Notes under the pieces: generated by a model
The model's database searches: none
What the model saw: the letters and a program-made list of their open reading frames with translations, nothing else
What the model was told of the DNA's origin: nothing
Shown here: positions 7,301-43,260 of the stretch, piece after piece
Numbering within the stretch: position 1 is the first letter of the stretch
Layout of the letters: the number at the start of each line of letters is the position of its first letter
Translations under genes and position numbers: made by a program
Source of the DNA: Saprospiraceae bacterium
Lineage (GTDB): Bacteria; Bacteroidota; Bacteroidia; Chitinophagales; Saprospiraceae
Assembly: GCA_025056735.1 (NCBI GenBank)
Contig: JANWVR010000015.1
Location: 1-54,604, forward strand
Length of the DNA stretch: 54,604 nucleotides
Reading direction: 5' to 3'

Positions 7301-9616
7301 ATGACCCGATTTTTTTGGCTAATCCTGTGGATAGCAGCGCCTGTTGGTCTGGCGCATGGCCAATTGGCGGTATCGAGTCCGGCGTTCGCATCGGAAGCTC
7401 GGCGGGTGCCCGGGCAGTCGCCCGAGGGCTTGCGCATTCGCCGCACGCCGGCACCCATTACCTTAGATGGCCGTTTGGAAGAGCAGGCCTGGGCCGAAGC
7501 CGATGCAGCCGTGGATTTTACCCAGCAGTTCCCGGTGGATACTGTATTGGCCGACGCGCGCACCGAAGCGCGCTTTACCTTCGACGACCGATTTCTATAT
7601 GTGGGCGTCGTCTGCTGGCAAGCGCGTGCTGATTATACAGCGCCATCGCTCAAGCGCGACTTTCCTACGGCCACCAGCGATGTGGTCAACGTCCTCATCA
7701 GCCCCTCGCGCGACGGGCTGAACGGCTTTCTTTTTGGCGTCAGCCCGCTCAACGTGCAACGAGAGGCGCTCGTTGACAACGGCACTACCCTCTCGCTCGA
7801 ATGGGACAACCGCTGGAACTCGGCCGTAACCCAACACGACGACCATTGGGTCGTGGAAATGGCCATTCCCTTCAAAACCCTGCGTTATTCGCGCGCCGAA
7901 GGTGCCAACACCTGGGCCATCAACATTGTGCGCACGCGCTTGAAAAACTGGGAAGTCAGCACCTGGCATCCGGTGCCGCGCCAGTATGCGCCCAACAATC
8001 TGGCTTTTTGCCGCCCCTTGCACTGGCAAACACCCCCGCCGCCACCTGGGCTGAATGCCGCCATCATTCCCTACGCCACAGCACGCTGGGAGGCCAACTT
8101 CCGACGCCAGACGCCCGATTTAAGCGTCTCCGAACGCATCCGCCGTAGCGTTTACGGTTTGGGGGCCGACGCCAAAATTGGCATCACGCCCTCGCTCAAC
8201 TTAGACCTGACGTTCAACCCAGATTTCTCGCAAGTAGAGGTGGACCGACAGGTGGTCAACCTCAGCCGTTTTGAACTCTTCTTCCCGGAGCGCCGGCAGT
8301 TTTTTTTAGAAAACCGCGACCTGTTCGCCATGTTCGGCTTTCCCAGCACCCGGCCCTTTTTTTCGCGGCGTATCGGGCTGGCGCGCAACCCTATCACCGG
8401 CTTCAATGAAAATATACCCATTCTGGCCGGTGCGCGCCTGAGCGGCAAACTCACCGACGACTGGCGCATCGGCCTGCTCAACATGCAAACCGCGCGCGTC
8501 AACTGGGACTCAGCCCGCACCCTGCCCGCTGCCAACTTCACTGTGGCTACCGTGCAGCGCAAAATGTTCAGCCGCAGCGCATTGAGCGCCATCCTCGTCA
8601 ACAAAGAAAATTTCCTCGGCCCCCTCAACGAAACCCAGCGCGCCGGCATTCAGCCCTGGAACCGCGTTGCTGGGCTTGAGTATAACCTCTACAGCGCCGA
8701 CAACCGTTGGGAAGGCGAGTGGTACTACCACCGCTCGTTCTCGCCCGACCCACGCCGACGCGGCCAGACTGCCGCCCAATTCCTCGGCTATTTCGACCGT
8801 CATTTCAACACCCGATTGGGCTACATCCTCGTAGACTCGTTCTATACCGCCGACGCTGGCTTCGTGCCCCGCAAAGGCTACCAGAGCTTCTTTCCGGGCG
8901 GAGGCCTCATTTTCTATCCGAAAAAGGGAAAAATCAATAACTGGTTGGTGCGCCTCAACGGCGAATTTACCTATTCGCTCTTCTGGCAGGAAACCGACCG
9001 CGAAGTCAACCTGAACGTGGAGGCCACCTCCCAGGATCAGGCCGAAGCGGGCATTTATCTGACCAACACTTACACCTTTTTGTTTGAAAACTTCGACCCT
9101 ACCAACCTGTACCGGCCAGGCACGCAACCCTTGCCGGGCCAGCGCGGCTACACCTACAATAGCGGCGGCGCTTATTTCAGCAGCAGCAATACCTACGACC
9201 TGCAAGGGTGGGTAGCGGTGCAATTCGGTCAGTTTTTTAATGGTTATTCTCAATCCGTATCGGGCGAAATCAGCTACCGCTGGCAGCCCTACGGCACGTT
9301 TGCCGTCAGTTACAACTACAACCGCATTCGCCTGCCAGCGCCCTACGCCAGCGCCGAGGTATGGATCGTAGGGCCGCGTGCCGAACTGGCCTTCTCGCGC
9401 AACCTTTTTGCCAGCGCCTTTTTTCAATGGAATACGCAAGCCAACAATTTCAACATCAACGCTCGCCTGCAATGGCGCTTTGCGCCTGTTTCTGACCTCT
9501 TTGTAGTCTATACTGACAACTCCTTCGCCCAGCCTGTTGCCGACACGCGAGCGCGCTTTCTGACGCCTAAAAACCGCGCCTTAGTGCTGAAAGTCGTTTA
9601 TTGGCTTAATGCCTGA
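7301..9616 (+). CDS. DUF5916 outer-membrane protein with CBM9-like N-terminal domain
   Basis: This 771-residue exported protein starts with a signal peptide (cleavage near AHGQ). Residues about 45-240 form a CBM9-like sandwich with PITLDGRLEEQAWAEA, FDDRFLYVGVVC and MAIPFKTLRYS. The remainder is the DUF5916 region, recognisable from NPDFSQVEVDRQVVNLSRFE, FFPERRQFFLENRDLF and the FFSRRIG segment. It is followed by many alternating beta-strands that suggest an outer-membrane barrel and by a strand-like C-terminus. The family is widespread in Bacteroidota and lacks an agreed function. Carbohydrate binding is only suggested by the CBM9-like fold. The gene is divergent from the cryptochrome and is followed 69 bases later by the first glucosaminidase gene. 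Confidence 0.9.
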   Translation: MTRFFWLILWIAAPVGLAHGQLAVSSPAFASEARRVPGQSPEGLRIRRTPAPITLDGRLEEQAWAEADAAVDFTQQFPVDTVLADARTEARFTFDDRFLYVGVVCWQARADYTAPSLKRDFPTATSDVVNVLISPSRDGLNGFLFGVSPLNVQREALVDNGTTLSLEWDNRWNSAVTQHDDHWVVEMAIPFKTLRYSRAEGANTWAINIVRTRLKNWEVSTWHPVPRQYAPNNLAFCRPLHWQTPPPPPGLNAAIIPYATARWEANFRRQTPDLSVSERIRRSVYGLGADAKIGITPSLNLDLTFNPDFSQVEVDRQVVNLSRFELFFPERRQFFLENRDLFAMFGFPSTRPFFSRRIGLARNPITGFNENIPILAGARLSGKLTDDWRIGLLNMQTARVNWDSARTLPAANFTVATVQRKMFSRSALSAILVNKENFLGPLNETQRAGIQPWNRVAGLEYNLYSADNRWEGEWYYHRSFSPDPRRRGQTAAQFLGYFDRHFNTRLGYILVDSFYTADAGFVPRKGYQSFFPGGGLIFYPKKGKINNWLVRLNGEFTYSLFWQETDREVNLNVEATSQDQAEAGIYLTNTYTFLFENFDPTNLYRPGTQPLPGQRGYTYNSGGAYFSSSNTYDLQGWVAVQFGQFFNGYSQSVSGEISYRWQPYGTFAVSYNYNRIRLPAPYASAEVWIVGPRAELAFSRNLFASAFFQWNTQANNFNINARLQWRFAPVSDLFVVYTDNSFAQPVADTRARFLTPKNRALVLKVVYWLNA

Positions 9617-9685: not shown

Positions 9686-10951
9686 ATGAGTCGTTGGCTT
9701 ACCCTCGCACTATCGGGCTGGCTGGCCCCTGCCCTCTTATTTGCTCAAAAAAACTCAGATGCGGAAATGGACTCGCTGCGCCAGGCGTACATCCTGCGCT
9801 ACCGCGACATCGCTATGGATGAAATGGAGCGCAGCGGTGTGCCGGCCAGCATTAAACTGGCTCAGGCGCTTTTAGAAACGCGCGCTGGCACGAGCGAGCT
9901 GGCCCAAAAGGCCAACAACCATTTTGGCCTCAAATGCGGAAAAAACTGGAATGGTGAAACGTACGCTAAAAACGACGACGAGTTTGACGCCAAAGGGCAG
10001 CCGGTGTTGTCGTGCTTTCGCAAATACGCTCATGTAGTGGCTTCCTATGCCGACCACAGCGCCTTTTTGCAATTGCCCGAAAAGAAGGACCGTTACGGCT
10101 TTCTGTTTGCCTTAGACCCGTTGGATTACAAAGGCTGGGCGCAGGGGCTGCAGAAAGCCGGCTATTCGCCCGTAAGCCATTATGCGGAGCGGCTGATTTT
10201 TTACATTGAACGTCATCAGCTGTATGAGTACGACCGGCAGGTGAAAAGCGGTCGGCTGGCGCTCAAGCGCGTGGCAACACTCAACGGGGCGCGCTTAGTG
10301 CAGGCGCGCGAAGGCGAGACGCTGCGCCGCATAGCCCAATTGTATCAACTGCCTGCTGACTCGTTGATGGTGTTTAACGATAGCCTTTACGCCTTGGACC
10401 GACCGCTGCAAACCGGCGATTTCGTATTCCTTGAGTCTAAAGGCACATCTGTTGGGCCAGGGGCGCCAGCCACCCATCGGGCGCAAAAGGGCCAGACCCT
10501 TCGGCACGTTGCCCAGTACTACGGCGTGCGGCTCAGGACACTCCAACAATATAATCCATATGCTCCCGACGCTCCGTTGACTGCCAACGCAGTGATACGC
10601 CTGCAGCTCCCTGCAAAACCCGGGCTGGCCGCCAAGGGCATATCGGCCAAGCGCGACAGCGCAGCGCCAAAGTCGCAGCCGTCGTCGGGCTTAGTGGTGG
10701 AAATGCTGCCCACCGAGCCTTTAGCAGCGCCCATCCCTGCAAGGCCAGCATCCGATGCACGCCCTTCTGAAGCGTCGCCCGTTACCATCAACATGCGAAC
10801 GGGTGAAGTGGAAGAGTACCATGTCGTTGTCCAAGGCGATACGCTTAGCAGCATTGCGCGGCGCTATCAGACTACGGTGGAACGGCTGCGCCGGCTCAAT
10901 CCAGGCTTGAGTGATGCCATACGCCCAGGGCAAACACTGCGCGTTCGGTGA
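9686..10951 (+). CDS. Exported glucosaminidase with LysM repeats (first copy)
   Basis: The 421-residue product has a signal peptide (residues 1-20, cleaved near LLFA-QK). Residues about 33-185 form a FlgJ/mannosyl-glycoprotein endo-beta-N-acetylglucosaminidase domain, with ASIKLAQALLETRAGTSELA and its likely catalytic Glu64, then NNHFGLKC. Enzymes of this fold cut the glycan strands of peptidoglycan. Three LysM-type repeats follow at about 203-247, 264-308 and 378-421. The last (YHVVVQGDTLSSIARRYQTT) is the clearest. LysM binds N-acetylglucosamine and would hold the enzyme on the wall. The next gene is a paralogue with the same order of domains, so this is a tandem duplication. Cleavage has not been shown for this protein and is inferred from the domain. 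Confidence 0.92.
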   Translation: MSRWLTLALSGWLAPALLFAQKNSDAEMDSLRQAYILRYRDIAMDEMERSGVPASIKLAQALLETRAGTSELAQKANNHFGLKCGKNWNGETYAKNDDEFDAKGQPVLSCFRKYAHVVASYADHSAFLQLPEKKDRYGFLFALDPLDYKGWAQGLQKAGYSPVSHYAERLIFYIERHQLYEYDRQVKSGRLALKRVATLNGARLVQAREGETLRRIAQLYQLPADSLMVFNDSLYALDRPLQTGDFVFLESKGTSVGPGAPATHRAQKGQTLRHVAQYYGVRLRTLQQYNPYAPDAPLTANAVIRLQLPAKPGLAAKGISAKRDSAAPKSQPSSGLVVEMLPTEPLAAPIPARPASDARPSEASPVTINMRTGEVEEYHVVVQGDTLSSIARRYQTTVERLRRLNPGLSDAIRPGQTLRVR

Positions 10952-11018
10952 GAGACGTTGTAGGCAAACCGTGCATCTTTGCACCTGTCCGTCTCACTTG
11001 AAACACACACCGGCTGCG

Positions 11019-12464
11019 ATGAAATACCTGCGTTTGCTTTGGTTCTCTCTGCCCTTGTTTGCCTGGCTGGGCTGTAAAAGCACCAAACCCACTACCGCCG
11101 AACGCCCCCTGCGCTCGCCCGAACCCGCTGCAGCGGCCAAATCTACTGGCAACCCTCAACTGGACTACGTGCAGCGCTACAAAGACATTGCCATCGCCGA
11201 AATGCAGCGCACGGGCATTCCAGCCTCCATCAAACTGGCCCAGGGCATTCTGGAGAGCGGCTCTGGGCGCAGCGAGCTGGCCGTCAATGCCAACAATCAC
11301 TTCGGCATCAAATGCGCCGGTACCTGGACGGGCCGCACTTATTACAAAAAGGACGATGAGCGCGACGCCAGTGGCAACCCTATCGAGTCGTGCTTCCGCC
11401 GCTATGAGCGGCCCGACGAGAGCTTCTTCGACCATAGCGAATTCATTCGAGACCCGCGCAGAGCAGCGCGTTATGGGTTTCTGTTTAACTTAGACCCCAC
11501 GGATTATCGCGGCTGGGCGCGCGGCCTGCAAACAGCCGGCTATGCCACATCGCCCACGTATGCCGACCGTCTCATTGAGCTCATCGAAAACCTGCGCCTT
11601 TATGAATACGACCAACCGGGTGCAGTAGTGGCGCCCCCGCCGGGCGGTGTTGTGCCCGAGCGCGTGCCGCCAAAAGAGCGCATCCAATACGTTAACGACG
11701 TCAAGGTCGTACACTCGCGCCCAGGGGAAACCATCGCCGATATTGCGCGCATTTACCAGCTCAACCCCAGTGACGTGGCTGATTACAACGACCGCCTTTT
11801 CGCCCCGGGCGACCGCCTGCCCGTAGGCACGCGCATTTTCATCCAGCCCAAACGACGCAGCTGGCGCGGTCGCACCACGCATCACTTCGTGCGCACAGGC
11901 CAGACGATGCTTGACATCGCCCAGCAGTACGGCATCCAACTCGAAGCATTGCTGGAGCGCAACGGCATGACCTACGGCCAGGAACCCATGGTCAATGAAA
12001 AAATCCGCCTCCGTGGCCGCCGGCAGGCCGGCGAAGTCGTCCGCTTGCGCGACGGTGGAACGCCGCAACCGCCCCGGCCTACACCACCACCACCCCTGAC
12101 ACCCGACGAAAGACCGCCCTTCGAACGACCCGACACGGCCAAAGCACCCTCAACGCCCGCGCCCTTGCCCGACCGACCTGTCGTCGTCGGCGTCCCGTAT
12201 CCAACTGACCCCATTCCGGAGCCTGCTCCGCAGCCTCGGCCACCCGCGTCTCAGACGCCACAGCCGCAGTGGCCCAACCCAACGCCTCCTGCGCCCCAAA
12301 CACCGCCAACACCGCAGCCGCAAGCCGTCTTTCACCGCGTCGAACGCGGCGACACGCTCTTCAGCCTTTCACGCCGATACGGCATCTCCGTGGCAGAACT
12401 CAAACGAATAAATCAGCTCACCTCCGACCAAATTAAAATCGGACAGGTCTTGCGCATTCAATAA
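11019..12464 (+). CDS. Glucosaminidase lipoprotein with LysM repeats (second copy)
   Basis: This 481-residue paralogue of the preceding gene starts at the ATG at 11019. The open frame extends upstream into the previous gene, but only this start gives a proper signal with a lipobox (FAWLGC, Cys19), so it is probably membrane-anchored while copy one is soluble. The glucosaminidase domain covers residues about 48-197, with ASIKLAQGILESGSGRSELA (likely catalytic Glu79) and NNHFGIKC. Two weaker LysM repeats lie at about 228-276 and 288-333, and a clear one at the end (436-480). A proline-rich, probably unstructured linker of about 85 residues (347-433) separates the second and third and is absent from copy one. 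Spacing to the Lnb-like gene is 32 bases. Confidence 0.92.
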   Translation: MKYLRLLWFSLPLFAWLGCKSTKPTTAERPLRSPEPAAAAKSTGNPQLDYVQRYKDIAIAEMQRTGIPASIKLAQGILESGSGRSELAVNANNHFGIKCAGTWTGRTYYKKDDERDASGNPIESCFRRYERPDESFFDHSEFIRDPRRAARYGFLFNLDPTDYRGWARGLQTAGYATSPTYADRLIELIENLRLYEYDQPGAVVAPPPGGVVPERVPPKERIQYVNDVKVVHSRPGETIADIARIYQLNPSDVADYNDRLFAPGDRLPVGTRIFIQPKRRSWRGRTTHHFVRTGQTMLDIAQQYGIQLEALLERNGMTYGQEPMVNEKIRLRGRRQAGEVVRLRDGGTPQPPRPTPPPPLTPDERPPFERPDTAKAPSTPAPLPDRPVVVGVPYPTDPIPEPAPQPRPPASQTPQPQWPNPTPPAPQTPPTPQPQAVFHRVERGDTLFSLSRRYGISVAELKRINQLTSDQIKIGQVLRIQ

Positions 12465-33154: not shown

Positions 33155-35116
33155 TCAGTGTTTTTTCCACTTCTGGAATTGTTGCTGGACTTCCGGCTCC
33201 TCAGGCAGAAGGGCTACGGCCTGTTCGTAGGCATATTCAATTTCCGTATCCGGCTTGTTGAGGTACTGGTAAATTTCGGCTAGGCGGAACCAGCACCAGC
33301 CGCAGCGCTTGCTTTCGGGGCTGAGCTGAATGACCCGCCGGTAAAGGGCGGCAGACTCCTCCAGCAGGCGCTGGTTGAGCTGCTTTTTGCGCTTGCGGTA
33401 GGCCTCGCGCGCCAGTTCAAATTTGATACTGGCCAGCTCGTTCAGCCCTTTTGGGTCGCTCCACAAAAGGGTGCGGTTGTTTTCCAACAGCTGGTGGGCG
33501 CTCTCGAAATCGCCGGCATTTCGATACAAGGTAGCGACGTCGGTCAGCGCACTAGGGTCAGCAAATGACGGGTCCACATAGCGAAGCGTCTCAGCCGCTT
33601 TCAAGGGTTTGCCTCGTACTAAATACGCGCGGGCCATAGCCTGGGCGGCAGGCGTTCGGTCTATACGACCGTTTTGGGCCAGCAGTTCTTTCCATTCCGT
33701 TTCGGCGCCTTCGAGGTCGCCGCTTTCAGCCTTGTATTCAATGAGTTGCGCCCAAAGGATGCCCGACGGGGCGGCTGCCTTGCTTTCGGAGAGGCGATGC
33801 AGCGCCGCATCCTTTTGCCCGGTGGCCCACAAGTAGGCGGCCTCCCGGATGGCGTGCAAGACCACGTATTGCAGGTGCGCCGGTAGCGTCACACGGAAGT
33901 ACGTGCGACTGGCGTCGAAGTCGAAGCGCGGCGGCGGCGAGCCGTTCTGCTTCATCTCTCGGATGATAGTGGGGATGCCCGTGTTGCGCATTTCGGCCAA
34001 GCGCAGCTGCTTGAGGAAATCGCCCACCCGGCGGTTGCGGTTGGGGGCCGGCGGCACTCGAGCGCCTTCAGCGAAATGCTCGGGCAGAATGCCCGGCACA
34101 GGGCCCGGGTAGCTGATGATTTCCATCCGGTCAGGATAAAGGTAGATTTTTATCGGCTCCGTGCTTACGTCGTAGCCGCGGTGGTAAAAGGCATTGACTA
34201 CAGCCTCTTCCATAGCGGCATACGGAAAAGCGACAAAGCGCATAGCCTCGGCTTTGTGCGGCAGTTTTTGGGTTAAATGGCCGGTAATGCCCTCCAGGAA
34301 GCGCAAAATCTCTCGAATTTGCTCATGAATAGGGCCGGTGAAGTACTTTTCTTCCACCACTCGCCCGCCAGCCTCGTCCCCGAACTGAGCCACTTCTGTG
34401 CGAGCGCCAGCAAAGTACTCGTGCGGCGAAAAGGTGAAAAACATAAGCCCTACATTTACAGGCGCGTAATGGTCGTTGACCCGGCGCGCAATGCGCAGGT
34501 CTAAGCAGTCTTCCAGTAAACCCTGACCGGCCTCCGCCAGCTTGCTACGCGCGTCAATGAGGAATTTTTTGATAAGGCTGTGTTCCAACACCTCGTAGGA
34601 AAGACGAGCATTCGCCCTGTCGTCAAAAGGAATGCGCGCCGTCAGGCTGAGTAACTCTTGCAAGATGGCGCCTTGCGCCTCCACCGTCTCCGAACTCTGG
34701 CGGATGTAGTAAGCCCGTTCGCCAGTGCCGCGCGCCGACGGGGCACTGTATGGCCGCGCTTCGCCTGCCGGACACCAGATGACTAAGAGCGTTTTATGCT
34801 CAAAACGAATGGGTTCCACTACCGGATAGTATTCCGGCTCGATGCGGTTGCACTGCCCGCGGATTTTCTTTTGCATCTCCTCCAACGAGTCCTCCGCAAG
34901 GCCGGCAGGCGGTAGCTTTGCCACGCCGCCCTCTTCTTCCACGCCCAGCACGATATAGCCGCCGTTGAGGTTGTGGAAATCGTTGGCAAAGGCGCAAATC
35001 GTGGCCACAACCTGCCGCAGCGCCGGCTCAGAGAGCGACGCTTTAAACTCCAATCGGGCCGACTCAACCGTTTTGGCCCGCAGGAGGTCCTCGATGTTGA
35101 TAGGAATGGCTGGCAT
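33155..35116 (-). CDS. AlbA_2 (Schlafen-type) ATP-binding protein fused to TPR repeats
   Basis: The 653-residue protein begins with an AlbA_2/Schlafen-like domain (residues about 14-140: ESARLEFKASL, GGYIVLGVEEEGG and RAYYIRQSSETVEA). The middle part (about 230-415) is the RecG-like C-terminal ATP-binding region of this family, with FPYAAMEEAVVNAFYHRGYD and IEIISYPGP-like strands. The last 230 residues are helical repeats with a TPR look, such as SALTDVATLYRNAGDFESAH and RCGWCWFRLAEIYQYL. The usual family C-terminus is a winged helix. A TPR tail suggests a protein-protein platform instead. Codon use is like its neighbours. It sits three bases upstream of dnaE. Proteins of this family act as regulators or in defence, but the role here is unknown. 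Confidence 0.85.
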   Translation of the reverse strand: MPAIPINIEDLLRAKTVESARLEFKASLSEPALRQVVATICAFANDFHNLNGGYIVLGVEEEGGVAKLPPAGLAEDSLEEMQKKIRGQCNRIEPEYYPVVEPIRFEHKTLLVIWCPAGEARPYSAPSARGTGERAYYIRQSSETVEAQGAILQELLSLTARIPFDDRANARLSYEVLEHSLIKKFLIDARSKLAEAGQGLLEDCLDLRIARRVNDHYAPVNVGLMFFTFSPHEYFAGARTEVAQFGDEAGGRVVEEKYFTGPIHEQIREILRFLEGITGHLTQKLPHKAEAMRFVAFPYAAMEEAVVNAFYHRGYDVSTEPIKIYLYPDRMEIISYPGPVPGILPEHFAEGARVPPAPNRNRRVGDFLKQLRLAEMRNTGIPTIIREMKQNGSPPPRFDFDASRTYFRVTLPAHLQYVVLHAIREAAYLWATGQKDAALHRLSESKAAAPSGILWAQLIEYKAESGDLEGAETEWKELLAQNGRIDRTPAAQAMARAYLVRGKPLKAAETLRYVDPSFADPSALTDVATLYRNAGDFESAHQLLENNRTLLWSDPKGLNELASIKFELAREAYRKRKKQLNQRLLEESAALYRRVIQLSPESKRCGWCWFRLAEIYQYLNKPDTEIEYAYEQAVALLPEEPEVQQQFQKWKKH

Positions 35117-39361: not shown

Positions 39362-40216
39362 ATGGAAAAAGCCAACGCATTCGAGCGCCTCGTCCATGAA
39401 CTCTCCCCGCGCCATGGCCTTGGCGAAGCGCGCAGCATTGCCCGCATTGTTTTTGCCGACGCACTGGGCTATCGCACCCCGCCTGCCACCCTCTCTGTAG
39501 AAGAGGAAGCGCGCTTAGAACCCATTCGACGGCGATTATTGGCCGGCGAACCCGTGCAATATGTCCTGGGCCAGGCCGACTTCTTCGGGCTTAAATTTCG
39601 GGTCAACTCCAGCGTGCTCATCCCGCGGCAAGAAACGGAAGAGCTCGTCGCCTTTGCCCTGCGCTGGCTCAATGCTCGCGAACAGCGCCAGCCCGCTGTG
39701 CTCGATGTTGGGCTGGGCAGCGGCTGCATCGGCATCGCCCTCAAACGCCGCCGACCCGATGTACGCCTGTTCGGCATCGAAAAAAGCCCAGACGCCTTAG
39801 CCGTCGCCCTCGAAAATGCCTACATCTTGCTGGGCAAAGGTGAATTCACTTTCTGCAACGCCGATATCCTACAGCCAGAAACAGTGCCCGCGCATTGGCC
39901 CGCCTTCGACCTCATCCTCAGCAACCCGCCTTACGTGCGGCGACAGGAACAGCACCTCATGCCTGAACACGTGCTGGCCCACGAACCGCATGAGGCGCTC
40001 TTCGTCGAGGACGACGACCCGCTCCTCTTCTACCGCGCCATTGCGCGCTTTGCCCAACAAAGGCTCACCGCTGGCGGCGCCCTGTTCTTCGAGTGTAACG
40101 AATTTAATGCCTGGCAAGTCGTCCTCTTGCTTGAGGAAATGGGTTTCTCCAATCCTACCCTACAGCAAGACCTCAGCGGGGCAGAACGAATGGCTTGGGC
40201 CGTGCGCAAAAATTGA
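39362..40216 (+). CDS. prmC: Release factor glutamine methyltransferase (PrmC/HemK)
   Basis: The 284-residue enzyme transfers a methyl group from S-adenosylmethionine to the glutamine of the GGQ motif in peptide-chain release factors. The N-terminal helical domain contains EPVQYVLGQADFFGLKFRV and SVLIPRQETEELV. The Rossmann methyltransferase core has VLDVGLGSGCIGIALK (SAM-binding) and the catalytic LILSNPPYVRR. Length and motif order are those of PrmC. The ATG at 39362 fits the family start (MEKANAFERLVHEL), while the open frame begins inside the preceding ABC exporter gene. The gene ends 10 bases before a decayed copy of the purK 5' end. Confidence 0.96.
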   Translation: MEKANAFERLVHELSPRHGLGEARSIARIVFADALGYRTPPATLSVEEEARLEPIRRRLLAGEPVQYVLGQADFFGLKFRVNSSVLIPRQETEELVAFALRWLNAREQRQPAVLDVGLGSGCIGIALKRRRPDVRLFGIEKSPDALAVALENAYILLGKGEFTFCNADILQPETVPAHWPAFDLILSNPPYVRRQEQHLMPEHVLAHEPHEALFVEDDDPLLFYRAIARFAQQRLTAGGALFFECNEFNAWQVVLLLEEMGFSNPTLQQDLSGAERMAWAVRKN

Positions 40217-40225
40217 ATACCTGAC

Positions 40226-40312
40226 TGCCGTACCTTCGTCCGCGTGTTTTCCCCGTATCGAGAATTGGCATTCTGCGCAGCAGACAGTTGAGCAAGATGC
40301 TCCGCTAGGCCA
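40226..40312 (+). pseudogene. Decayed copy of the purK promoter and 5' end
   Basis: These about 87 bases match the promoter and first codons of the intact purK at about 42085-42172. Hand alignment gives about 80 % identity, with blocks CTGCCGTACCTTCG, GGCATTCTG and GCAAGATGCTC unchanged, one missing base and nearly all differences transitions. In frame it would read from a GTG, but the missing base and an internal TGA prevent translation. It follows the prmC stop directly. The homology ends on both sides of the copy, so the duplication is limited to the start of purK. It is best read as the displaced, no longer used original 5' end of purK or as a copy left by an insertion event. Confidence 0.75.
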
Positions 40313-40409
40313 GCATTAAACCGAGGTTAATGTCTCATCGAGGGCGAAAAGTCGGAGCTCGTGCTATCATAAGATGAGTCTATCTCTAAACAAGGCGTGA
40401 CGCACAGAT
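40313..40409. other. Left junction of the inserted segment
   Basis: The bases between the purK remnant and the AlbA_2 start hold a pair of imperfect inverted sequences, TGTCTCATC (about 40331) and GATGAGTC (about 40374). No integrase, attachment site or transposon end is recognised. Confidence 0.3.
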
Positions 40410-41906
40410 ATGAATATCCAAAAAGAAAAACTATTGGAATTGGTCAAACGCGGCGAAGGACTTACTACGGAGTTCAAGGCGTGCCGCAATAGGATTAGTA
40501 AGGAAGTCTATCCCACCATTTGCGCCTTCCTCAATCGCGCCGGAGGTGTGCTCTTGTTGGGAGTGGAGGATACGGGTATTATCAGCGGTATAGCCCCAAG
40601 TGCCGTAGAAAAAATCCGAAAGGAGTTTGTTACCGCTATCAACAATCCTCAAAAAATCTCTCCGCCCGCATACTTAAGCATTGACGAGATAACCATAGAT
40701 GGCCTTAAAGTTTTGCATATCTATGTCCCTGAGAGTTCGCAAGTACACCGCTGTAATGGACGCATTTATGATCGAAACGAGGACTGCGACCTTGACATTA
40801 CCGACCATACAGAACAAGTAGCATGGCTGTATCGCCGAAAACAAGCTACCTACAGCGAAAACATAGTCTATCCCCATATCACCCCCGGCGACCTCCGCTC
40901 AGACTTGATTGAATGGTGCCGTAACCACGTCCGCATTAACCACAAAAATCACCCTTGGGTACACATGAATGATGTAGAGCTGCTAAAAAGTGCCCAGCTC
41001 TACAAGACAGATCCTACCACCGGCCAACAGGGCATTACTCTGGCTGGCGTATTGCTTTTGGGGACGGACGAACTCATACTTCACGCATGCCCAGCCCATC
41101 GCACCGATTTGATATTGCGTAAGGTGAACATGGATCGGTACGACGACCGCGATCTGGTACGCACCAATCTGATAGAAACCTATGACCGCATCATGGCTTT
41201 CGTTCGAAAGCATCTTCCAGACCCTTTCTACCTTGAGGGCGATGAGCGCAAAAGTCTTCGGGAGATTATTTTTAGAGAGGTGGCTACTAACATCTTGATA
41301 CACAGGGAGTATGCCAGTGGAATGCCCACGCGGTTCATCATTGAGCGCGGAAGGGTTACAACGTTTAATGCTAATCGTCCGCATGGTTTTGGCCCTATCA
41401 ACCCGTACACCTTTTCACCCTACCCCAAAAACCCTGTTATTGGCGCATTCTTCCGCGAAATTGACCGTGCCGAGGAGCTCGGCTCAGGTCTCCGCAACTT
41501 AATGAAATACGGGAAAATCTATGGCGGCGCCGACCCGCAACTCATTGAGGGGGATGTCTTTGAAACCATCATTCGAGTACCGGAGTTTGACGAGGTCACT
41601 ATCGCGAGCGGAAATGCTCCTGGCGTATCTCATGAGCCACCCCCTGAAGTTACCCCCGAAGTTACCCATGAAGTTACCCCCGAAGTCATGAGAGTCCTCC
41701 AGGTCGTGAAAAAGGAGATGAGCCGGGTCGAAATCATGGCTGCACTCGGCCTAAGGGACGAAAAGCATTTTCGAGAAAAGTACTTGCTTCCCTCGCTATC
41801 ATTAAACCTTATCGAGATGACCCAACCCGATAAACCACGAAGCAGCCGACAGCAATACCGACGCACCTCGAAGGGACAAAACGTAGTTGACAAAGAAAAG
41901 TCATGA
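40410..41906 (+). CDS. AlbA_2 (Schlafen-type) ATP-binding protein, probably acquired
   Basis: The 498-residue protein has an N-terminal AlbA_2 domain (residues about 12-130: GLTTEFKACRNR, GGVLLLGVEDTG and RCNGRIYDRNEDCD). A RecG-C-like ATP-binding part runs over about 200-395 (SLREIIFREVATNILIHREY, RAEELGSGLRNLMKYG). A short repeat PEVTPEVTHEVTPEV (about 412-426) forms a linker to a C-terminal winged-helix-like region. This layout is typical of a widespread, patchy family found in many mobile regions. The gene differs from its neighbours by lower GC in several stretches and by the absence of the TTA-before-G leucine codons so frequent elsewhere. It lies between a decayed and an intact copy of the purK 5' end. 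Its biological role is not known. Confidence 0.88.
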   Translation: MNIQKEKLLELVKRGEGLTTEFKACRNRISKEVYPTICAFLNRAGGVLLLGVEDTGIISGIAPSAVEKIRKEFVTAINNPQKISPPAYLSIDEITIDGLKVLHIYVPESSQVHRCNGRIYDRNEDCDLDITDHTEQVAWLYRRKQATYSENIVYPHITPGDLRSDLIEWCRNHVRINHKNHPWVHMNDVELLKSAQLYKTDPTTGQQGITLAGVLLLGTDELILHACPAHRTDLILRKVNMDRYDDRDLVRTNLIETYDRIMAFVRKHLPDPFYLEGDERKSLREIIFREVATNILIHREYASGMPTRFIIERGRVTTFNANRPHGFGPINPYTFSPYPKNPVIGAFFREIDRAEELGSGLRNLMKYGKIYGGADPQLIEGDVFETIIRVPEFDEVTIASGNAPGVSHEPPPEVTPEVTHEVTPEVMRVLQVVKKEMSRVEIMAALGLRDEKHFREKYLLPSLSLNLIEMTQPDKPRSSRQQYRRTSKGQNVVDKEKS

Positions 41907-42082
41907 ATAGTAAATGCGTTCGGGCTGCAACGAAAGCGCCACCTGCACCATTCTTCTACGATCACTACCGATCTGATTGTTTCGGCTCCCGGAGTGCTCT
42001 TCCTTAACGCTCTACAAGCATTCCAAAACCGGAGCATTTCCTTGTGAAGACATAAGCAGAGGAGGGCGCCAAAGCCCTATCT
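41907..42082. other. Right junction of the inserted segment
   Basis: This stretch lies between the AlbA_2 stop and the start of homology to the purK remnant. It contains an inverted repeat related to GCTCCCGG (about 41985) and CCGGAGC (about 42038), and a small hairpin AGGGC-GCCAAA-GCCCT near 42064-42079. No gene is supported. Confidence 0.3.
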
Positions 42083-42089
42083 GCTGCCG

Positions 42090-42097
42090 TACCTTCG
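42090..42097 (+). promoter_or_regulatory. -7-like element of purK
   Basis: TACCTTCG, one base from TAnnTTTG, lies five bases before the ATG at 42103. It is conserved in the decayed upstream copy at 40231-40238. If it is the promoter, purK mRNA is leaderless or nearly so. Confidence 0.45.
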
Positions 42098-42102
42098 CCC
42101 AC

Positions 42103-43260
42103 ATGTTTCACCCATATCCGAAAATCGGCATTCTGGGCGGCGGACAGCTGGGCAAGATGCTCTGCCAGGCTGCTGCTGATTGGCATTTGGACGTTGCCGT
42201 CCTTGACCCTACGCCGGACGCCCCGGCGGCGCGCCTATGTAGTGAGTTCGTCGTGGGCGATTTCCGCGACTACGACACCGTACTGGTGTTTGGCGCCAAA
42301 GCCGACCTGCTGACGGTAGAGATTGAGCAGGTCAACGTGCGGGCACTGTACGAGTTGGAGCGTATGGGCAAGATCGTTCATCCTGCCCCTCGCGCGTTGG
42401 AAGTTATTCAGGACAAGGGGCGTCAAAAGGCTTTTTACGCCGAAAACGACATCCCGACAGCTGCCTTCGAGTTGTTCGACGGCGAGGAAGCGTTGCTCCA
42501 GGCCATTCGCTCCGGGCGCTGGCGGCTGCCGTTAGTGCAGAAGACCCGCACGGCGGGTTACGATGGGCGCGGCGTGGCCGTGTTGCGCACGCCCGAAGAC
42601 CTGGAAACCAAGCTGTTGCGCGGCCCTTGTTTGGCCGAAGAATATGTACCCCTGCGCGCCGAAGTGGCCGTCATTGCCGCGCGCAACGCCGCTGACGAGG
42701 TGGCGGTGTTTCCGCCGGTGGAGATGGACTTTCACCCCGAGGCAAACTTAGTGGAGATGCTTTTTTGCCCGGCGCGCCTGTCGCCCTTCGAGGCTGCGGA
42801 GGCCGAGGCGCTGGCCGAGCGCGTCATTCGGGCATTCGATTTGTGCGGCCTGCTGGCCGTGGAAATGTTTTTGACCCAGGAAGGGCGTCTGCTGGTCAAC
42901 GAAGTCGCACCACGCCCCCATAACAGCGGCCACCACACCATCGAGGCAGCGGCAACGAGTCAATTCCAGCAACACCTGCGCGCCATTACCAACCTGCCTT
43001 TAGGCGACACAACGTTACGCATGCCCGCTGCCATGCTCAACGTGCTGGGCGCGCCCGGGCATCGAGGCCCTGTGCAATACGAGGGCGTGGAGGCCCTGCT
43101 GGCCGAGCCGGGCGTCTATCTGCACCTGTACGGCAAGCAGACGACGGCGCCTTTCCGCAAAATGGGCCACATTACCGTTACGGCGCCTACTCTGGACGAA
43201 GTGCTGGCAAAAGCACGCCGCGTGCGCGATAGGGTGCGCGTAATCAGTCGGCCTGAATGA
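42103..43260 (+). CDS. purK: 5-(carboxyamino)imidazole ribonucleotide synthase
   Basis: The 385-residue enzyme converts aminoimidazole ribonucleotide, bicarbonate and ATP to N5-carboxyaminoimidazole ribonucleotide in purine synthesis. It has the ATP-grasp layout of PurK: an N-terminal Rossmann-like part (KIGILGGGQLGKML), then VEIEQVNVRALYELE, the ATP-binding region LVQKTRTAGYDGRGVAV with CLAEEYVPLRAEVAVI, and LLVNEVAPRPHNSGHHTIEA near the end of the grasp domain. The frame opens upstream at 41977 but the ATG at 42103 gives the exact family start. The purE partner is not in the window. The 5' end has a decayed copy 1.86 kb upstream. The gene converges on trmD. Confidence 0.96.
   Translation: MFHPYPKIGILGGGQLGKMLCQAAADWHLDVAVLDPTPDAPAARLCSEFVVGDFRDYDTVLVFGAKADLLTVEIEQVNVRALYELERMGKIVHPAPRALEVIQDKGRQKAFYAENDIPTAAFELFDGEEALLQAIRSGRWRLPLVQKTRTAGYDGRGVAVLRTPEDLETKLLRGPCLAEEYVPLRAEVAVIAARNAADEVAVFPPVEMDFHPEANLVEMLFCPARLSPFEAAEAEALAERVIRAFDLCGLLAVEMFLTQEGRLLVNEVAPRPHNSGHHTIEAAATSQFQQHLRAITNLPLGDTTLRMPAAMLNVLGAPGHRGPVQYEGVEALLAEPGVYLHLYGKQTTAPFRKMGHITVTAPTLDEVLAKARRVRDRVRVISRPE

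Follow-up and report, generated by a model that had tools for sequence, protein, structure and literature searches.

A displaced purK start beside an AlbA_2 gene, and similar leftovers at recC and hsdM, point to gene gain at gene ends without an integrase

In the genome of a Saprospiraceae bacterium (assembly GCA_025056735.1), the start of purK occurs twice in direct orientation on contig JANWVR010000015.1, and a single gene of the AlbA_2 type lies between the two copies. We refer to the whole stretch that was analysed, 54,604 nucleotides of this contig, as the window, and to the AlbA_2 gene as the cargo. The arrangement very probably arose by an insertion that left behind the displaced purK start. 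The same anatomy recurs around AlbA_2 homologues in other genomes, at the ends of unrelated genes, and these cases point to a gain of genes without an integrase. The locus is organised as follows.

39362..40216, + strand: prmC, the upstream neighbour and ancestral neighbour of purK (Pfam methyltransferase and PrmC_N matches; next to purK in relatives)
40218..40310, + strand: displaced, decayed purK start, with the box TACCTTCG unaltered at 40231-40238, GTG for ATG, a lost base and a TGA (alignment, outgroups)
40311..40409, + strand: spacer of 99 bp from the displaced copy to the AlbA_2 gene, with the new junction after 40310
40410..41906, + strand: cargo gene, SLFN_AlbA_2 (residues 16-125) and Fic-like_C winged helix (residues 425-485) (Pfam search)
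41907..42077, + strand: spacer of 171 bp from the cargo to the working purK start
42078..42170, + strand: working purK start, with the box TACCTTCG at 42090-42097 and ATG at 42103 (alignment, relatives)
42103..43260, + strand: purK, whole (ATP-grasp and PurK_C Pfam matches)

The two copies (40218-40310 and 42078-42170, 1.86 kb apart in the pairwise alignment) each comprise a promoter-like box and about 22 codons. Their alignment has 94 columns with 16 mismatches, 14 of which are transitions, and two single-base gaps, and BLASTN recovers them as 40225-40310 and 42084-42170 with 82% identity. This bears out the coordinates, spacing, orientation and number of differences given in a preliminary description of this DNA. 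The possibility that it had raised, of a repeat no better than shuffled sequence, is refuted by the alignment score of 108, as none of 500 dinucleotide shuffles scored above 34. The upstream copy begins 2-9 bp past the stop codon of prmC (40214-40216) and is dead, i.e., incapable of encoding PurK, because it has GTG (40244) where the working copy has ATG (42103), lacks one base after codon 5, and reaches a TGA 15 codons from the GTG. Among the 28 window open reading frames (ORFs) of at least 250 amino acids with enough flank, only the cargo has a flanking direct repeat, and the spacer at 40311..40409 has no second place in the genome. A TAnnTT(T/C)G box, which we take to be akin to the -7 box motif, stands a few bases 5' of the purK ATG in 19 of the 30 listed loci by eye (42090-42105 in the window), and its position suggests a purK transcript that is leaderless or nearly so.

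Relatives retain the empty site. PrmC adjoins purK in 8 of 36 genomes of the same genus (G002, G006, G014, G016, G029, G030, G032, G034), with gaps of at most about 280 bp by match coordinates, which leaves no room for the insert. In G002, whose purK is 85% identical, a base-by-base comparison gives 121 bp between prmC and purK, a single copy of the start, and no AlbA_2 match. G035 (purK 90%) has prmC elsewhere, without a leftover of purK next to it. At 26 other purK loci, scanned 1.15-1.47 kb upstream, a reach shorter than the spacing in the window, a second start was not seen (best upstream score 29; up to 32 on the downstream side). With G035, G002, and G011 as outgroups, all nine sites at which the three match one copy only match the downstream one. 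The outgroups disagree at a few other sites, two of which have the state of the upstream copy in G035. The 12 differences in the reading frame fall 8/2/2 on codon positions 1/2/3. Because they lack a third-position bias and have this polarity, the two copies were probably close to identical when formed, the upstream one having then decayed freely. We considered a late duplication from states common to both copies and absent in G035, and dropped it once G002 and G011 were found to share these states. The insertion at the start of purK proposed in the preliminary description is thus upheld by the empty site in G002, the prmC-purK neighbours and the recurrence of the anatomy with AlbA_2 homologues elsewhere; the decay of the displaced end is upheld by the nine informative sites, each of which places the change in the upstream copy.

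The cargo is the single long gene in the insert and stands out from its surroundings, as had been noted before. Its match to Pfam PF04326 (SLFN_AlbA_2) scores 69.2 bits (cut-off 25.3), and its G+C content (0.494) and third-position G+C (0.54) are the lowest among the 32 window ORFs of at least 200 amino acids. Its leucine codon usage (CTG 0.11, CTT 0.23) also differs from that of purK (0.56, 0.04) and prmC (0.22, 0.08). It occurs in a single place in its own genome and has no close homologue in the same-genus genomes (best E 1.3e-12). The closest homologues, with long matches of about 55-70% identity, are in 18 of 65 genomes of g81, a distant genus of the phylum that we guess from its features to be Chlorobium. 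A search of viral contigs returned no relative, and a scan of genome contigs gave one, in a Methanolobus metagenome-assembled genome (45%). The cargo is not a restriction-modification gene but an AlbA_2 / Fic-like_C protein. Searches returned no match in NCBIfam, two weak matches to Argonaute-associated models in PADLOC (E 4e-5 and 7e-4), and only a Fic protein in PDB, through the common C-terminal region. An AlphaFold model made with two sequences has a mean predicted local distance difference test score of 40 and is confident only for about residues 421-498. No integrase-sized second gene lies between the purK copies: the long gene has no integrase domain, and two smaller overlapping ORFs on the opposite strand were left unsearched. 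About 5 kb from the cargo, at 33155-35116 (- strand), the window encodes a second, different AlbA_2 protein (SLFN_AlbA_2, HATPase_c_4, TPR).

The anatomy recurs around homologues of the cargo. A first look at 23 homologue loci gave two cases. We then compared the 600 bp upstream of each gene with the 700 bp downstream, using limits fixed after a first set had been seen. This set has 37 loci including the window, 31 of them with enough flank, and five of the 31 have a repeat, the window among them. The four others concern recC in G244, a glycosyltransferase in G408, an ORF of 113 amino acids in a Bacteroides ovatus plasmid, and an unannotated non-coding stretch of a Mycoplasma prophage (172 bp in total, 41 bp inside the limits). 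A second set of 14 loci, 12 testable, was analysed with the test already fixed. Repeats flank the gene in 5/12 loci, or strictly in 4/12 if one leaves out L259 (36 bp, dispersed, weak); the four clear cases are hsdM in G704, G536, and G1023, and a DUF2130 gene in G1057. When the sets are pooled, 9 of the 42 testable loci other than the window have a flanking repeat (8 strictly). The controls gave 3/99 for ORFs of at least 250 amino acids at the first-set loci, one of which is the same phenomenon with another cargo, and 1/129 for ORFs in 319 kb of the window's own genome. The resulting p values (9/42 vs 1/129, p=1.3e-5; vs 3/99, p=0.001; strict second set, 4/12 vs 3/99, p=0.0024; first set alone, 4/30 vs 3/99, borderline at p=0.05) are optimistic, as the hsdM cases may be related by descent and two loci come from a single genome in some instances. 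Six loci with several repeats, or with repeats far from the gene, were not counted (L152, L157, L161, L174, L177, L178). In G001, an AlbA_2-like ORF comes after purK without any direct repeat, and this locus is therefore not a further case. In a scan for displaced gene ends, the matches in L266, L273, and three of the five in L271 resemble paralogues or other repeats, and the copies in L270 and L277 were missed, the downstream hsdM frame being broken or starting elsewhere. Other cargo genes also sit between copies, so the anatomy is not specific to AlbA_2, even if AlbA_2 genes exceed the controls.

Two targets have accumulated several leftovers. For g81, a methyltransferase gene that ends about 30 bp before recC appears to be the empty site, judged by eye in G180, G272, G311, and G370. 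In G248, three cut-off recC starts (codons 1-72, 1-71, and 1-49) precede the whole recC, with different genes between them that include an AAA ATPase with an RNA ligase and a toxin-antitoxin-like pair. G244 and G111 have a common AlbA_2 junction at recC. Some 3 kb from the G244 insertion, at L149:1521-3311, the 3' end of a methyltransferase gene is duplicated (331 bp, 87%) around an ORF of 268 amino acids without a Pfam match. The region before recC appears as an insertion hot spot in this genus, with cut-off recC starts and varying cargo in L236 (G248:C27), L239 (G311:C80), L237 (G374:C33), and L241 (G347:C54). By eye, two start types seem swapped between leftover and whole copy at recC codons 18-35 of G244 and G111, as if recombined. 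At hsdM, G536 (L271, G536:C13) has two cut-off starts (codons 1-23) before the whole gene, with NOV_C and ORF6N genes between the first two starts and AlbA_2 before hsdM, and both leftovers continue into the same AlbA_2 leader. In G688 (L269, G688:C25), AlbA_2 comes first, followed by an hsdM start, a gene that looks Fic-like by eye, and hsdM; the order of the AlbA_2 and Fic-like genes differs between this locus and that of G704 (L270, G704:C1). All three (L271, L269 and L270) are restriction loci. We also looked for additional hsdM starts in 226 genomes, of which 29 gave a match. This brought up both G536 leftovers, one further short match in G574 and one further long match in G416, each of the latter two on another contig, and a few isolated truncated matches. 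One copy is whole and one is truncated on the cargo side for purK in the window, recC, hsdM in G536, and the glycosyltransferase in G408, the exceptions being hsdM in G704 and G1023.

The divergence between copies bears on how they came together. In seven leftover/whole pairs of recC, not all of them independent, the differing sites fall 28/17/79 on codon positions 1/2/3 (p=5e-12 against equal thirds), and because of this third-position bias we conclude that the copies diverged as coding alleles before they met. The hsdM differences are synonymous by eye in 6/6 cases in G536 and in 2/2 in G1023. In G408, which has the 3' form, the leftover on the far side of the AlbA_2 gene continues into a C-terminus different from that of the whole glycosyltransferase, the two being alike by eye; such a difference is predicted by a crossover and not by a target-site duplication. 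Together, the recC divergence and this C-terminus are better explained by a crossover of the resident gene with an incoming gene end than by duplication of a target site.

We therefore lean towards a circularised fragment and a single homologous crossover as the route of insertion. The proposed steps would be: 1) a fragment from another cell carries the AlbA_2 gene followed by the purK start, i.e., its promoter and about 22 codons; 2) the fragment ends are joined into a circle; 3) one homologous crossover between the purK start of the circle and the resident purK inserts it; and 4) the product would have the resident 5' end cut at the circle junction (40218-40310), then the cargo, and finally a complete start that continues into the remainder of purK. 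The gene would remain whole throughout, and the cut-off copy would be free to decay. A fragment with the 3' end of a gene would give the mirror form, as at other loci. The circle, the single crossover, and the donor are what we infer; in the case of the window, the donor would have had to belong to the same lineage or to a very close one, or else the event was a true target duplication. In a study on cut DNA in Escherichia coli, 56 of 60 Lac- recombinants gave the polymerase chain reaction product of a partial lacZ duplication, 14 were sequenced and measured 109-950 bp, and the authors read them as single crossovers of a shortened, re-closed circle (PMC3240628). The preliminary description had held that, with no integrase visible, the mechanism would be new or depend on a helper. 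This is not borne out, because circularised DNA and one crossover are known to leave partial gene duplications (PMC3240628), and because the anatomy is not restricted to AlbA_2 genes. An insertion-duplication without integrase is the best reading, and neither novelty nor a helper is required.

Several observations weigh against this account. A majority of the testable AlbA_2 homologues outside the window (33/42) have no flanking repeat. In the 3' cases, third positions are less strongly favoured (methyltransferase 13/6/21, glycosyltransferase 15/9/20, plasmid ORF 3/0/5). The purK copies show no such bias, and since they were probably near-identical when formed, a same-species donor and a true target duplication fit the window equally well. 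No mosaic break was seen along the window purK, and we found no donor in which AlbA_2 adjoins purK. G536 and G704 have the same hsdM breakpoint, and that of G1023 is 8 bp away, which is unexpected for a random circle junction unless it was inherited with the cargo, and which hints at a preferred site or at a common ancestry of the AlbA_2-hsdM unit. In G549, of the same genus as G536, AlbA_2 is joined to hsdM without a leftover. Finally, the target gene is not always left whole: the downstream hsdM start is frameshifted in G704, and hsdM breaks off soon past its start in G1023.

The most serious competitor, which we nevertheless regard as unlikely, is an insertion with long target duplication, whereby an unspecified route would copy about 60-200 bp of the target, the unneeded copy would decay, and only insertions whose duplication covers a gene end would survive. 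It draws on the near-identity of the window copies at birth, on the tight flanking repeats (97% identical for hsdM in G1023), and on what earlier work describes for restriction-modification genes (PMC3874152, PMC1643837, PMC3031569). The bias at recC and the differing C-terminus in G408, which require incoming copies that had already diverged, speak against it, as does the same pattern around unrelated cargo. The claim that incoming DNA supplied the new 5' end of purK is accordingly upheld in part: the working 5' end is on the cargo side and may be of foreign origin, and target duplication accounts for it equally well in the window. Homology-facilitated illegitimate recombination would produce the same order of parts from a linear donor with AlbA_2 upstream of purK, by homologous exchange inside purK and an illegitimate junction at codon 22. 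This process is known from bacteria with natural competence and, as a rare event, from conjugation in E. coli (PMC3240628), and it has been proposed for displaced gene ends of type VI secretion systems (T6SS) (PMC5361080). It accounted for only 4 of the 60 Lac- clones of the E. coli test, one-sided illegitimate events with deletions (PMC3240628), and would need selection to place the illegitimate junction inside the same gene every time, so we deem it improbable.

It is harder still to credit an integrase or another recombinase acting in trans at a site in the target gene, on an element carrying a substitute gene end, and we give this very little weight. Gene-restoring elements are known to carry such ends, and the near-identical breakpoints of the three hsdM cases agree with it. 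So does a Legionella adelaidensis plasmid (L179:6001-8774), in which the end of an AlbA_2 homologue overlaps the start of an annotated site-specific integrase gene. The absence of an integrase-sized second gene between the window copies argues the other way, as do the unrelated targets and the recC breakpoints, which vary with the cargo (codons 48/49 and about 71). The least plausible scenario, hardly tenable in our view, is a tandem duplication of the purK start followed by an unrelated gain of the AlbA_2 gene, the simple alternative left standing by the preliminary description. It is compatible with the window taken alone. A bare double start without the AlbA_2 gene was not seen in relatives within the 1.15-1.47 kb scanned at the 26 loci, none of 224 ORFs of at least 120 amino acids from the same genome has a displaced copy in the gene-end scan, and the repeats recur around AlbA_2 homologues across unrelated targets. 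The 319-kb sample of this genome contains one other direct repeat of at least 60 bp spaced by 0.3-9 kb (L200:7714-7810 / 9235-9331, 97 bp, 93%), which reaches the contig end. The window also contains tandem paralogous glucosaminidase-LysM genes (9686-12464), with 66% DNA identity over 388 bp.

Among known systems, the nearest kind is the insertion of restriction-modification genes with long target duplication, for which Nobusato 2000 and Furuta 2010 are reportedly the sources. The locus is close to it in placing a gene or small set of genes between direct copies of the target, of roughly 100 bp, without an integrase, and in having an empty single-copy site in a relative (here G002). Compared with what is described for restriction-modification genes (PMC3874152, PMC1643837, PMC3031569), our cases differ in several respects: the cargo is made up of AlbA_2 and other genes, almost every repeat contains the start or the end of a gene, leftovers accumulate in arrays, the recC copies have diverged as coding alleles, and AlbA_2 genes recur. 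The partial lacZ duplications of E. coli likewise place an insert between a whole and a partial gene segment; they come from a laboratory plasmid, whereas ours are inferred from natural genomes and are older events (PMC3240628). Another resemblance is with the displaced 3' ends of T6SS effector/immunity and Rhs genes, where an incoming module provides a new gene end, the old one is pushed aside, and leftovers accumulate. There, effector genes are affected in their 3' regions, whereas our cases mostly involve the 5' ends of purK, recC, hsdM, and the DUF2130 gene, with unrelated cargo (PMC5361080). Small variable segments of genomes are flanked by direct repeats in 10-18% of cases, and in contrast with ours, 66-94% of these repeats are shorter than 30 bp (PMC2884548). 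In the literature searched, we found no account of AlbA_2 genes lying between duplicates of a gene end. As regards integron gene cassettes, with their structured attC sites and IntI, the repeat in the window consists of purK sequence. Some integrative elements, e.g., SXT in prfC, are known to rebuild the 5' end of the gene that they enter. Such elements give the target gene a new start, as here; unlike them, the insert has no integrase in its long gene, consists of one gene, and is flanked by a repeat far longer than the usual core of the attachment site.

These comparisons leave room for a more speculative proposal, which we hold to be possible if rather doubtful. AlbA_2 and other, often defence-like, genes might travel as cassettes with a copy of the start (or end) of a conserved host gene. 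With a copy on either side of the cassette, ordinary homologous recombination would excise it as a circle that could enter the same gene in another cell, without an integrase and without breaking the target, and arrays such as those of G248 and G536 would build up. The displaced start may lend its promoter to the cargo. In a bolder form, the AlbA_2 protein itself would aid the move, and this would explain why AlbA_2 genes are over-represented between the repeats.

The gene content of Bacteria turns over largely as small segments, and in many of these no integrase can be seen. If recombination in one end of a neighbouring gene brings in single genes, the gene ends left behind can be read as scars that give the place and the direction of each gain. 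They point to hot spots where such genes collect, which in the genomes seen are recC and hsdM, and they make the integrase-free cassette route directly testable.

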